From positions 1 through 64,000 of the forward strand of contig NZ_CP042239.1 of the NCBI RefSeq assembly GCF_007833215.1: a stretch of 64,000 bases of DNA, written 5' to 3'. A model generated the notes under the pieces. That model saw only the letters and a list, made by a program, of their open reading frames with translations. It searched no databases and was not told the origin of the DNA. Positions 7,666 through 10,926 of the stretch are shown here, in pieces (the stretch's first letter is position 1; every line of letters begins with the position of its first letter). The stretch comes from Sphingomonas suaedae (GTDB lineage Bacteria; Pseudomonadota; Alphaproteobacteria; Sphingomonadales; Sphingomonadaceae). The position numbers and the translations under genes are program-made.

Positions 7666-7833
7666 TTACGACGCCTTCATGTTCGACGAAACGTTGGTGA
7701 AGGTGGTCTTGAGCTGGTTGCCCAGGCCCTGCATCGCGGCGATGGCTGCGACGGCGATGAGCGCGGCGATCAGGCCGTACTCGATGGCGGTGGCACCCTT
7801 TTTGTTGCCGAAAATCTTGCGGATCGTGTTCAT
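7666..7833 (-). CDS. Flp-type (type IVb) pilin
   Basis: This is a 55-residue prepilin: a short basic leader, then GATAIEYGLIAALIAVAAIA, the typical Flp processing region and hydrophobic helix with Glu at +5, then a short polar tail. Such pilins are cut by a TadV/CpaA-type peptidase and assembled into Tad/Flp pili. GGAG sits 6-7 nt before the ATG. A terminator follows. No tad/cpa assembly genes are in the window, so the machinery must lie elsewhere. Confidence 0.88.
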   Translation of the reverse strand: MNTIRKIFGNKKGATAIEYGLIAALIAVAAIAAMQGLGNQLKTTFTNVSSNMKAS

Positions 7834-7962
7834 ACCGGTCTCCATGCAATTTGACGCTTCATTTCCCGGCTGCCCCCGGGAGAACCCGGTTCCAGCAAGG
7901 CCGAAACTAAGTGACGGAAGTTAACAAAGACCTTAGGCGCGACCGGGTGAGGCCCGTAATAT

Positions 7963-8145
7963 TCAACGGGCGGTCTGGACCTTGTTGCTGACATTGTTCC
8001 ACATGCCGGTGGTGCCGCTGGCGAGTTCGCCAAGCGCAGCGATCATGACGAGGACGATGAGCGCGAGGATGAAGCCATATTCGACCGCCGTCGCGCCGCG
8101 CGAGCAGCGTAACAGGCGGGCCGATAATGACTTTAATGGTCGCAC
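7963..8145 (-). CDS. Second Flp-type pilin
   Basis: The 60-residue protein runs from a GTG at 8145, which has GGAGAGG about 7 nt upstream. It shows the Flp pattern RGATAVEYGFILALIVLVMI followed by a polar tail. It sits upstream of the other pilin on the same strand but differs clearly in sequence, so it is a separate pseudopilin or minor pilin rather than a recent duplicate. The longer in-frame extension upstream reads into the mutT leader and is not pilin-like. Confidence 0.82.
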   Translation of the reverse strand: MRPLKSLSARLLRCSRGATAVEYGFILALIVLVMIAALGELASGTTGMWNNVSNKVQTAR

Positions 8146-8199
8146 GGTGCGGCCTCTCCAATGAGTGCTGACGGAATCTAGGGAAACAAGATTAACGAA

Positions 8200-8628
8200 A
8201 TGCTGAAAACGCGCCCTGCATCGTTGGAGAATGGATTGTTGCTGGTCGTTGCGGCGGCGCTGGTCGATGGCGACGGTCGCGTGCTGGTGCAGCAACGCCC
8301 GCCCGGCAAGCCGATGGCGGGACTATGGGAGTTTCCCGGCGGCAAGGTCGATCCGGGCGAACTGCCCGAAACCGCCTTGTGCCGCGAACTGGAGGAGGAA
8401 CTCGGCATCTCGGTCGAGCAGGCGTGTCTCGCCCCCGCGACCTTCGCCAGCGAGGCGCTGGGCGAGCGGCATCTGCTCCTCTTGCTCTATGCGCTCCGCA
8501 AATGGAGCGGGGTCCCCCAGGCGCGGCACGCTACCGCGCTGCGCTGGGTTCGCCCGCTCGAATTGCACCGCCTCGACATGCCGCCGGCGGACAAGCCGCT
8601 GATCGGATTGCTGGAGGCGCTGATCTAG
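8200..8628 (+). CDS. mutT: Nudix hydrolase, MutT (8-oxo-dGTP diphosphatase)
   Basis: Hydrolyses oxidised dGTP to the monophosphate and so prevents A:T to C:G mutations. The 142-residue protein has a full Nudix box (GX5EX7REUXEEXGU) at 48-70, with R62, E63, E66 and E67 in place. The MutT-like LVQQRPPGKPMAGLWEFPGG precedes it. Its TAG stop shares the palindrome CTAG with the stop of the convergent terC-family gene, so the genes overlap by 4 nt. Confidence 0.92.
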   Translation: MLKTRPASLENGLLLVVAAALVDGDGRVLVQQRPPGKPMAGLWEFPGGKVDPGELPETALCRELEEELGISVEQACLAPATFASEALGERHLLLLLYALRKWSGVPQARHATALRWVRPLELHRLDMPPADKPLIGLLEALI

Positions 8629-9608
8629 CTTGCGTGCGCCACCTGCTGGTCGCGGGTGCGCCACAGCGAATAGGCGATGCCGGTGGCGAGGATCGCCACG
8701 GTGATCCCGAGCGATGCAAGCGGTGGGATCTTCGCCAGCCCCAGCGCATCGGCGACGAAGATTTTCGATCCGATGAACACCAGCAGCACGGCGAGCGCAT
8801 ATTTGAGATAGTGAAACCGCTCGACCAGCGCCGAAAGCGCGAAATAGAGCGCGCGCAGCCCCAGGATCGCGAAAATGTTCGACGTGTAGACGATGAACGG
8901 ATCGGTGGTGATGGCAAAGATCGCCGGCACCGAATCGACCGCGAACACCAGATCGGCAAACTCGATCATCACCAGCGCCAGAAACAGCGGCGTGGCATGG
9001 CGCACCATAGCCCCGGTTCGCGGATCTGCTTCCCGCACGAAAAACGCCGATCCGCGCAGCCCTTCGGTCACCCGCATGTGCCGCCGCAACCAGCGCAGCA
9101 GTGGCGAGCCCGAAACGTCATAGGGCGTATCGACCATCCGCCACATCTTGATACCGGTGAAAATCAGGAAGGCGGCGAAAATATACAGAACCCATCCGAA
9201 TTCGGACACGATCGTCGCGCCCACGCCGATCATGATCGCGCGCAGCACGATGACGCCCAATATGCCCCAGAACAGCACCCGGTGCTGATACTGACGCGGG
9301 ACGGCGAAATAGGTGAAGATCATCGCGATGACGAAGACATTGTCCATCGCCAGGCTCTTTTCGACCACGAATCCGGTGACGTAATTGACCGCTGCGGTCT
9401 GCCCGAGCTGCCACCAGACAAAGCCGCTGAACGCCAGCCCCAGAACGATATAGAAAGCCGAAAGCAACAGGCTCTCGCGCACCCCGATTTCGCGTTGCTT
9501 GCGATGCAGGACGCCCAGGTCGAGCGCGAGGAGGACGGCGACGAGGCCCATAAAGGCGAGCCACATCCACACCGGCTTGCCCAGCCAGAGGTAAGTCAGA
9601 AATTCCAT
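8625..9608 (-). CDS. TerC/Alx family integral membrane protein
   Basis: A 327-residue polytopic protein with about eight or nine hydrophobic helices. Conserved acidic membrane residues are visible in LLALDLGV, SLAMDNVFV and EFADLVFAVDSVPA, the hallmark blocks of the TerC family. Characterised members include E. coli Alx, linked to manganese export; tellurite resistance is the historical label. AAAGGGG lies 9 nt before the ATG. A structured RNA element at 9651-9705 lies in its leader, which suggests regulation at the RNA level. Confidence 0.9.
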   Translation of the reverse strand: MEFLTYLWLGKPVWMWLAFMGLVAVLLALDLGVLHRKQREIGVRESLLLSAFYIVLGLAFSGFVWWQLGQTAAVNYVTGFVVEKSLAMDNVFVIAMIFTYFAVPRQYQHRVLFWGILGVIVLRAIMIGVGATIVSEFGWVLYIFAAFLIFTGIKMWRMVDTPYDVSGSPLLRWLRRHMRVTEGLRGSAFFVREADPRTGAMVRHATPLFLALVMIEFADLVFAVDSVPAIFAITTDPFIVYTSNIFAILGLRALYFALSALVERFHYLKYALAVLLVFIGSKIFVADALGLAKIPPLASLGITVAILATGIAYSLWRTRDQQVAHAS

Positions 9609-9650
9609 TGAAGTCAGCCCCTTTCGGATCGCGCAGCACGCGCGTCGAAG

Positions 9651-9705
9651 GGCGGCCCGACATCATGCGCGATTCGCATCGCGCACCAGAGGGGCCCGGG
9701 CCGCC
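9651..9705 (-). promoter_or_regulatory. Structured leader RNA element A (before terC)
   Basis: Read on the minus strand: an 8-bp perfect outer stem (arms at 9698-9705 and 9651-9658), a 5' core GGGCCCCUCUGG (9697-9686), an 8-bp perfect inner hairpin with loop GCGA (arms at 9678-9685 and 9666-9673), and a 3' core UGAUGUC (9665-9659). Element B at 9991-10038 has identical cores in the same order but different stem sequences. A terC RNA motif is known from comparative genomics upstream of terC-family genes in Alphaproteobacteria; I recall its existence but not its consensus, so identity is likely but unproven. A riboswitch-like role in terC control is inferred. Confidence 0.72.
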
Positions 9706-9718
9706 GCGATTGGTTGGA

Positions 9719-9898
9719 TCAGTTGCCGGTTGCGAGTTCGCGCTTCCAATGCCCGGCGAGGCGGTCCTTGACCGCCAGCTTCAGCTTTTTCAGCCGCAGC
9801 AGGCGGAACCCGTCGGGATTGCGACGCCGTGCCTCGCGCCGAATCTCCTCGTCCAGCTTCCGGTGGACGACGCTCAGACGGCACAACATGCCACTCAT
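9719..9898 (-). CDS. DUF465 (YdcH-type) small helical protein
   Basis: From the ATG at 9898 it is 59 residues: one long charged helix with the DUF465 pattern, HRKLDEEIRRE then LLRLKKLKLAVKDRL. AGGAGG lies 7 nt upstream; an adjacent ATG at 9901 is also possible (spacing 4). Function of the family is unknown. It is preceded by RNA element B and followed by element A and terC, so the two genes may answer the same signal. Confidence 0.82.
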   Translation of the reverse strand: MSGMLCRLSVVHRKLDEEIRREARRRNPDGFRLLRLKKLKLAVKDRLAGHWKRELATGN

Positions 9899-9973
9899 CA
9901 TAATGCCTCCTGTCGATGTGAAATCGATCGGATGGCCGTCAGCAGGTGGAAACGGTCACGATAAGCCCAGCCT

Positions 9974-9992
9974 GCATCGGATCATCCGATGC
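9974..9992 (-). promoter_or_regulatory. Hairpin immediately 3' of RNA element B
   Basis: GCATCGGA and TCCGATGC form an 8-bp perfect stem with a 3-nt loop. On the minus strand the hairpin begins with the last two bases of the outer stem of element B (9991-9992), so the two structures compete for those bases. This could be the expression platform for the DUF465 gene; no T-run follows. Confidence 0.4.
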
Positions 9993-10038
9993 GGTCCGAC
10001 ATCACGATCATGTCGATCGCCAGAGGGGCCCGGTCCGC
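9991..10038 (-). promoter_or_regulatory. Structured leader RNA element B (before the DUF465 gene)
   Basis: Minus-strand order: an outer stem arm GCGGACC (10038-10032), the core GGGCCCCUCUGG (10031-10020), a 5-bp inner hairpin CGAUC/GAUCG, the core UGAUGUC (10004-9998), and the closing arm GGACCGC (9997-9991). The outer stem has one A-A mismatch. Both cores are identical to those of element A, while the stems differ and still pair. The start of the DUF465 gene is about 90 nt downstream. Confidence 0.7.
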
Positions 10039-10077
10039 GCGGCTAACATCGGGCCGGACGGCGTCTGCGTCAAGAGG

Positions 10078-10926
10078 TCAGGATTTCGGCCGAAGCGCAT
10101 CCGTCAACGATGTTGTCGCCGATCCGCGCCGCGCGGGTTTCGGCTGCGACGGATCGGGCGCCCAACCGGTCACGAAGATCGCGTCGAACCGCTCGGCGGT
10201 GCGTCCCTCCGCGTCGGCGCGCGCGGCGAATCGCTCCGCTGCCCGCGCCACCGTCTCGCGGCGCAGCGGTGCGGGGTCAGGTAACAGGCTGGTCGCCCCC
10301 ATCCCCCGCAGATCGCGGATCAGGTCGAACAGGCTGGCATAGCGGACGTTCAGCGTCTCGACATCGGCGACCGGCAGCGCGAAGCCCGCGCGCACCAGCA
10401 GATCGCCGGCGGAGCGCACATCGACCTGAGGGTGGATGCGGGCGGCCGGGCGATCGGCCTCGGCCTCCAGCATCACGCTGCGCAGCGTCGACAGCGTCGA
10501 TCCGCCCAGAAACGCACCGATGAACAACCCGTCGGGACGCAGTGAGCGCCGGATCAGCGCGAGCGCGCCGGGCAGGTCGTTGACGCTGTCGAGTACGCCT
10601 GCCGAGACGACCAGGTCATAGGCGCCTTCGGGCGAATGGGGCCGATCCTCCTGGGCTTGAACCCCGCCTGCCAGGGCAGCGAAGCGCGCGCCTGCATCGA
10701 CCCGCGTGACCCGCGCGCCGGGGGGCGGAACGAATGCACCGTCGAAACAGCCAAGATCCAGCGCATCGTGAAACTCGCGCCGCACCGCGTCGAGCCGCTC
10801 GCCAATCCCCTCCAGCATCCATGCGCGGATGAAGTCGAACCCCGCAAAGCCGGGCGCTGCGCGGTCGCGGTGCAGGCGCCGCCGGTTGCGGTCGAAGATA
10901 TCGGGCGGGGAAGCTGGGGAGGACAC
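10078..10926 (-). CDS. SAM-dependent methyltransferase, NDUFAF5/BioC-like
   Basis: From a GTG at 10926 the protein is 282 residues. It opens with a segment rich in Arg (DIFDRNRRRLHRDRAA) typical of the NDUFAF5-like group, then has the SAM-binding motif DLGCFDGAF and the post-motif AYDLVVSAGVLDSVNDLPG. Members in mitochondria modify a complex I subunit; bacterial roles are less clear, and a BioC-type role in biotin synthesis is the alternative. It diverges from comF; the further upstream in-frame extension overlaps comF and is rejected. Confidence 0.8.
   Translation of the reverse strand: MSSPASPPDIFDRNRRRLHRDRAAPGFAGFDFIRAWMLEGIGERLDAVRREFHDALDLGCFDGAFVPPPGARVTRVDAGARFAALAGGVQAQEDRPHSPEGAYDLVVSAGVLDSVNDLPGALALIRRSLRPDGLFIGAFLGGSTLSTLRSVMLEAEADRPAARIHPQVDVRSAGDLLVRAGFALPVADVETLNVRYASLFDLIRDLRGMGATSLLPDPAPLRRETVARAAERFAARADAEGRTAERFDAIFVTGWAPDPSQPKPARRGSATTSLTDALRPKS

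Follow-up and report, generated by a model that had tools for sequence, protein, structure and literature searches.

On the minus strand of the window (the whole 64,000-nucleotide stretch of Sphingomonas suaedae DNA analysed here), two terC RNAs (Rfam RF03067) lie on one operon in the gene order RNA1, DUF465, RNA2, terC. Each is an ordinary and well-supported representative of an RNA family already known, and comparison with related leaders inclines us to the view that each acts in cis as a translational ON switch, a prediction that we consider fairly probable. Together, the recurrent link to DUF465, the twin operon, the pairing between a hairpin (P3) and a downstream segment (D) in the DUF465 leaders, and the overall shape of the list of genes led by terC RNA make up what may be new here.

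Two terC RNAs in one operon

The Rfam search (cmscan) assigned RNA1 (9987..10041, minus strand), in the leader of the DUF465 gene, to RF03067 with 60.6 bits (E 4.7e-08; 66 bits with our own model) and RNA2 (9648..9707, minus strand), in the leader of terC, with 60.4 bits (E 5.3e-08), the gathering score being 39.9 bits. Both alignments fully cover model positions 1-59, and both RNAs sit on the coding strand ahead of genes, that is, in the cis position of the family. They differ from RF03067 as it is known in that one copy leads DUF465 rather than terC, that two copies occur in one operon, and that the P3/D pairing lies beyond the Rfam model, which stops six bases past the outer helix P1. No other RF03067 match was found in the 4.15 Mb genome, and at gathering scores the whole window yielded one tRNA and the two terC RNAs, but nothing else.

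The earlier note had described twin elements with the common cores GGGCCCCUCUGG and UGAUGUC, with outer stems GGCGGCCC/GGGCCGCC in RNA2 and GCGGACC/GGACCGC (including an A-A mismatch) in RNA1, and with inner stems of 8 and 5 bp, all of which can be read directly from the sequence. P1, moreover, extends by four invariant pairs (CCGG/UCGG) into the cores as claimed there, so that the open core is reduced to GCCCCUCUG facing GAUG. The two RNAs thus display the hallmarks of RF03067, namely a P1 ending in CCGG/UCGG, the open core GCCCCUCUG plus GAUG and a variable P2 hairpin.

That these elements form a conserved RNA fold, as had been proposed from the two copies, is borne out by covariation in an alignment of 59 diverse relatives, in which 88.5 % of the cells are paired (70.2 % when shuffled) and both sides of a pair have changed in 181 cases (60 when shuffled); sliding the partners by one to three columns leaves just 33-39 % paired. 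As an exact core pattern served to select the 59 relatives, an invariant core is built into this alignment; the stem covariation is not. At the position of the A-A mismatch in RNA1, next to the core, 25 of the 59 relatives have a non-standard pair, indicating that a weak pair at this point is common in the family. Folding energies were also considered as evidence and rejected as uninformative, RNA2 alone excepted (z -2.70); RNA1 alone is unremarkable (z 0.41) and the whole DUF465 leader folds in an ordinary manner (z -0.29).

The neighbouring genes are those that had been named before. The DUF465 gene (9719..9901, minus strand, 60 aa) matches PF04325 with 40.6 bits (cut-off 25), and terC (8625..9608, minus strand), encoding an integral membrane protein of 327 aa, matches PF03741 with 179.9 bits. 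By coordinates, 85 nt separate RNA1 from the DUF465 start and 39 nt separate RNA2 from the terC start, and the DUF465 stop codon lies only 11 nt ahead of RNA2.

Recurrence and the genes led by terC RNA

Within the genus, this TerC is present in 4 of 41 genomes in a total of five copies, and a terC RNA precedes all five. Four of the five (the window, L153, L154, and L155) show two RNAs, the first of them followed by DUF465; outside the genome of the window, this corresponds to 3 of 40 genomes with this TerC and to the twin layout in 3/3. The arrangement of one element ahead of terC and the other ahead of DUF465 accordingly holds beyond the window. In L155, Bax1-I and a zinc-ribbon protein sit between DUF465 and the second RNA, and the fifth copy, L156, has a single terC RNA and a basic, arginine-rich protein of 60 aa (1313-1495) that replaces DUF465 before TerC. 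The DUF465 family itself occurs in 40/41 genomes of the genus, and no near-exact copy of the core was found at the best 15 DUF465 loci of the genus (L157-L171), which indicates that it is the TerC-linked DUF465 copy that is tied to the RNA.

Among the loci listed, 11 cases of same-strand twin terC RNAs were identified. DUF465 lies between the twins in six of them (the window, L153, L154, L155, L031, and L237); L349, L359, and L365 have small frames and no called gene in between, and the remaining two are L014 and L126. The tandem RNAs of L349 and L365 are 267 and 197 nt apart, respectively, and are followed by TerC; the tiny open frame between them (8 and 6 codons, respectively, by eye) is a possible leader peptide. 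The pair in L126 is similar and has a longer frame. A different arrangement is seen in L182, L191, and L271, where back-to-back terC RNAs on opposite strands of one short intergenic region lead TerC and DUF4112, respectively.

With a threshold of E up to 0.001, terC RNA matches were obtained in 216 of 397 genomes of the family to which the window belongs, in 52 of 385 genomes of a class sample and in 68 of 82 genomes from the order that includes G778, where a single genome carries as many as seven copies. The family sample contains ten other genomes of the same genus, of which only one (G245) has a match. Named records with a terC RNA include Rhizobium, Paracoccus, Azospirillum, Caulobacter, and Pseudomonas, Caulobacter vibrioides being one of the hosts. 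A terC RNA together with a gene of the DUF475 cluster was additionally seen in a record titled Bacillus subtilis SK6B4 (L133), a contig that is probably mislabelled or contaminated.

The genes led by these RNAs were compiled from the best matches and the listed exact-pattern matches, and the resulting counts are hence not those of a random sample. After merging of identical copies (345 to 328), TerC is the first gene in 131 of the 328 listed copies and DUF465, the second commonest class, in 53, followed by zinc-ribbon proteins (21), DUF4112 (20), Bax1-I (18), unknown proteins (16), DUF475 (13), and short frames (5), the remainder being spread over many small classes. The labels stem from home-made profiles, which left 16 of the 328 unlabelled and in which L003fam and L072fam are cluster names only; those DUF475 members that were checked by Pfam match the TerC model as well. 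The genome samples alone give TerC 84/210 and DUF465 38/210, one of the 38 having been reassigned by hand, and the exact-pattern set gives, among the matches listed, TerC 47/118 and DUF465 16/118, these two sets not being independent of each other. Five three-mismatch pattern matches among 288 listed were dropped as false in the later sets and are still contained in one earlier count.

In 19 of the 328 listed copies, a gene related to ion transport or pH follows within 2.6 kb, be it the first gene or one further on: NhaA in 7, a Na/Ca exchanger in 3, MnhE in 1, a beta-carbonic anhydrase in 6, an alpha-carbonic anhydrase in 1, and a cation ATPase in 1. Twelve of the 19 were checked by Pfam (L032, L078, L111, L232, L240, L244, L291, L062, L239, L243, L249, and L176). 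In the strict sense, an ion/pH gene is the first gene in 10 of the 328 by label, and in three of these ten (L028, L032, and L233) a small frame, recognised by eye, precedes it; L028 was for this study reassigned by eye from NhaA to DUF465. The small frames before NhaA or the Na/Ca exchanger in L032 (30 codons) and L233 (longer) are, by eye, placed in a DUF465-like manner. DUF465 itself is followed in some copies by NhaA, a Na/Ca exchanger, a carbonic anhydrase or Bax1-I, besides TerC, with Bax1-I confirmed by Pfam in L029 and L155. DUF465, a family of unknown function, is thereby tied to ion-transporter operons. Among the rarer contexts, one terC RNA (L264, in G778) lies ahead of a putative amidoligase (PF12224).

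Predicted coupling to the ribosome-binding sites

In the terC leader, the ribosome-binding zone GAAAGGGGC (9617..9625, minus strand) faces an anti-Shine-Dalgarno stretch GCCGCCCTTC (9647..9656, minus strand), the 5' part of which is the 3' strand of P1. The duplex of the two is predicted at -10.4 kcal, and nearly the same pairing, of GCCCUUCG with CGA..GGGGC, occurs in the predicted minimum-energy fold. Over 67 short leaders, pairing between the first ten bases that follow the core and the zone preceding the start codon reaches -6.92 kcal as compared to -5.59 kcal for permuted partners (0/2000); a reversed control is weaker (p 0.003), with z below -2 in 21 of 66. When only the first six of these bases are used, all of them within P1, the pairing with the Shine-Dalgarno (SD) zone is not significant against the reversed control (p 0.07; z below -2 in 9/66), suggesting that the pairing leans on the flank beyond P1.

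The DUF465 leader is longer and has an additional layer. Directly after P1 follows the P3 hairpin in GCATCGGATGATCCGATGC (9974..9992, minus strand), the two basal G-C pairs of which overlap the foot of P1. Further downstream, segment D (9925..9939, minus strand) complements both stem and loop of P3 and can alternatively pair with AGGAGG, the ribosome-binding site of the DUF465 gene (9906..9911, minus strand), as in the predicted minimum-energy fold of the window, where GCC.UCC of D pairs with GGAGGC. A small predicted hairpin, TCGAT-TTCAC-ATCGA (9913..9927, minus strand), abuts the ribosome-binding site and overlaps the 3' end of D. In the window, the P3:D duplex is predicted at -15.5 kcal.

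For comparison across relatives, DUF465 leaders more than 80 % alike were thinned from 51 to 42, whereby the window's own leader was dropped beside that of L153. Counted from the start of P3, the first 28 nt fold at -6.4 kcal or lower in 41 of the 42, the exception being L237 (-3.5 kcal). Over these 42 nonredundant leaders, matched P3:D pairs reach -19.92 kcal as compared to -15.07 kcal for permuted ones (0/2000) and -13.05 kcal for a reversed D (p 3e-8), with z below -2 in 23/42; when all 42 D segments are ranked as partners, the one from the same leader comes first in 9 cases and within the top ten in 30. The signal is strongest in the loop region of P3 and weaker in 76 other long leaders (-15.96 versus -14.03 kcal; z below -2 in 17/76). 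A separate P4 hairpin or kissing loops in place of the P3:D duplex were considered and set aside, as judged by eye only.

The effect of the RNA fold on the ribosome-binding sites was modelled by forcing P1 and the open core in 55 of 68 short leaders and in 41 of 42 DUF465 leaders, the others having no CCGC start, no chosen start codon or no SD-like motif. Of the short leaders, 36 belong to TerC genes, and in these the SD goes from 0.22 to 0.48 unpaired (0.22 to 0.33 with a shuffled spacer, p 7e-5), and in the 41 DUF465 leaders from 0.35 to 0.48 (shuffled 0.37 to 0.33, p 1e-4); the gain is modest for all 55 short leaders (0.18 to 0.40, shuffled 0.25 to 0.38, p 0.016). Accessibility rises by more than 0.05 in 26/36, 24/41, and 36/55 of these leaders, respectively, and falls by more than 0.05 in 3/36, 5/41, and 5/55. 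The mean model cost of the forced fold amounts to 8.9 kcal for short TerC leaders, 8.0 kcal for all short leaders and 5.1 kcal for DUF465 leaders, in energy models that omit the aptamer's own contacts. Since the forced fold frees the ribosome site in most leaders, an ON switch is predicted. The mutual exclusivity of aptamer and ribosome-site pairing is supported over leader sets, weak for the first six bases alone, and not seen with P1 alone in the DUF465 leader of the window or in the terC leader of L153. In the window, the terC site is predicted to go from 0.14 unpaired in the free state to 0.30 with P1 forced, and in the close relative L153 it is unchanged by forced P1 (0.25). Forcing P1 alone leaves the DUF465 site of the window shut (0.17 to 0.18 predicted unpaired); with both P1 and P3:D forced, it is predicted to be 0.76 unpaired, at 2.6 kcal above P1 alone.

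In the mechanism that we propose, the foot of P1 and the sequence flanking it would at rest pair with the ribosome site of the terC leader, and segment D with that of the DUF465 leader. A signal would stabilise the fold of P1 and the core; P1 would then retain its 3' strand in the terC leader and D would switch to P3 in the DUF465 leader, leaving the ribosome site free in either case. With two copies per operon, both products could respond even if they share one message; a single ligand acting on both leaders, as the earlier note proposed, is conceivable. How the core would steer P3 is a step that this mechanism leaves unexplained. P3/D represents a concrete switch design to mutate.

Several other readings of the elements have to be weighed against two translational switches. 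RNA1 might act by transcription attenuation of the whole operon, for example, through Rho at the P3-D stretch, leaving only RNA2 to act on translation. By eye, this stretch is indeed C-rich and G-poor in many DUF465 leaders, and the narrow 11-nt gap between DUF465 and RNA2 would fit; a simple scan of 9550-10300, however, revealed no intrinsic terminator (nor any sigma-70-like promoter), and the P3:D pairing stops near the ribosome site, which points to translation and makes attenuation doubtful to us. We are similarly sceptical of the idea that the elements bind a protein or a small RNA, the invariant open core being where a trans-acting regulator of an envelope-stress regulon would land. Such a regulator would be in keeping with cores that are short, nearly invariant in sequence and present in up to seven copies per genome, and with a mixed target list that includes Bax1-I, Tim44-like, zinc-ribbon, and universal stress proteins, yet a pair of covarying helices on either side of an asymmetric internal loop, combined with competing downstream pairings, is typical of riboswitches. 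Very improbable, finally, is an incidental link in which DUF465 would be a mere passenger of a terC operon. Its slot is elsewhere taken by other small proteins or tiny frames (L156, L349, and L365), but the many listed copies in which DUF465 comes first (53/328) continue not just with TerC but also with NhaA, a Na/Ca exchanger, a carbonic anhydrase or Bax1-I, and the DUF465 leaders have the P3/D pairing in common.

Candidate signals and relation to known systems

The terC motif was reportedly described in one earlier paper, and to our knowledge it has stayed an orphan, a candidate riboswitch for which no ligand is known. In a literature search that did not extend to the original motif description, no paper on a terC motif riboswitch, RF03067 or an Alphaproteobacteria terC RNA motif was found. 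Where papers combine terC, riboswitch, and RNA motif, the passages concerned deal with yybP-ykoY and not with terC RNA (PMC10898510, PMC3890552). By title, none of the DUF465 papers found is about an RNA motif, and none on TerC and alkaline pH in Caulobacter or sphingomonads, or on carbonic anhydrase plus NhaA, appeared relevant.

The list of genes now renders the question of the ligand testable, as it leans toward pH or cation stress and away from Mn2+. That one RNA leads carbonic anhydrases of two unrelated families as well as sodium/proton antiporters suggests a role in acid-base or cation balance. It is conceivable, though we put it forward only tentatively, that the RNA responds to alkaline pH or to a cation stress linked to it and that the small DUF465 protein acts as a partner of membrane proteins. 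In an equally tentative general form, terC RNA may be an alphaproteobacterial sensor of alkaline-pH (or proton/cation) stress, whose short aptamer would switch on TerC, NhaA, Mrp, Na/Ca exchange, carbonic anhydrases, and DUF465 partners, in sphingomonads via P3/D strand exchange coupled to translation. The ion/pH genes behind this pH reading are few, the reading was made after the gene list had been seen, and most targets (DUF4112, zinc-ribbon, Tim44-like, and DUF475) give no pointer to pH. A precedent may be seen in E. coli alx, whose leader is a yybP-ykoY RNA. According to passages in two papers, Alx, the TerC homologue of E. coli, acts at alkaline pH and its gene is under a riboswitch (PMC10550928, PMC13274385); the likeness extends to a TerC gene under riboswitch control with a role at alkaline pH, whereas pH sensing by the terC RNA would be our extrapolation.

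A competing reading is that terC RNA is a riboswitch for Mn2+ (or another divalent metal), an alphaproteobacterial counterpart of yybP-ykoY with TerC and other exporters as efflux targets. The terC RNA is also found ahead of a Na/Ca exchanger (L111), the kind of protein to which YrbG belongs, and of a P-type cation ATPase. In the passages available from the respective papers, TerC proteins handle Mn2+ (PMC10550928, PMC13274385), and yybP-ykoY is likewise a cis leader of terC-family genes in other bacteria: of ykoY, a TerC gene, in a Bacillus relative (PMC10898510), of terC in Corynebacterium glutamicum (PMC3890552) and of terC in Vibrio, together with yrbG in V. vulnificus (PMC13274385). The two RNAs are, however, separate Rfam families, and cmscan gave no RF00080 (yybP-ykoY) match at RNA1 or RNA2 or elsewhere in the window. 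The same genome has its own Mn2+ riboswitch at 412375-412555 (L339; RF00080, 53.9 bits), ahead of a GDT1-type divalent cation/proton antiporter, and RF00080 was also matched in 10 other class-sample genomes with terC RNA, those in G594 and G607 being below the cut-off. Downstream of 20 such Mn2+ riboswitch loci, phmmer with the window's TerC as query detected no TerC in frames of at least 100 aa, and the two loci checked by Pfam were confirmed as GDT1 and MntP. NhaA, MnhE, and carbonic anhydrases, moreover, are unfit for a list of metal-efflux genes. Given a Mn2+ riboswitch of the genome's own and no TerC at 20 such loci, we reject Mn2+ as the first choice and regard it as an unlikely signal; alkaline pH or cation stress would be favoured in its place.

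Downstream of terC, two further open frames on the minus strand of the window (7666-7845 and 7963-8295) contain the motifs GATAIEYG and GATAVEYG, respectively, and presumably encode proteins resembling Flp-type pilins.
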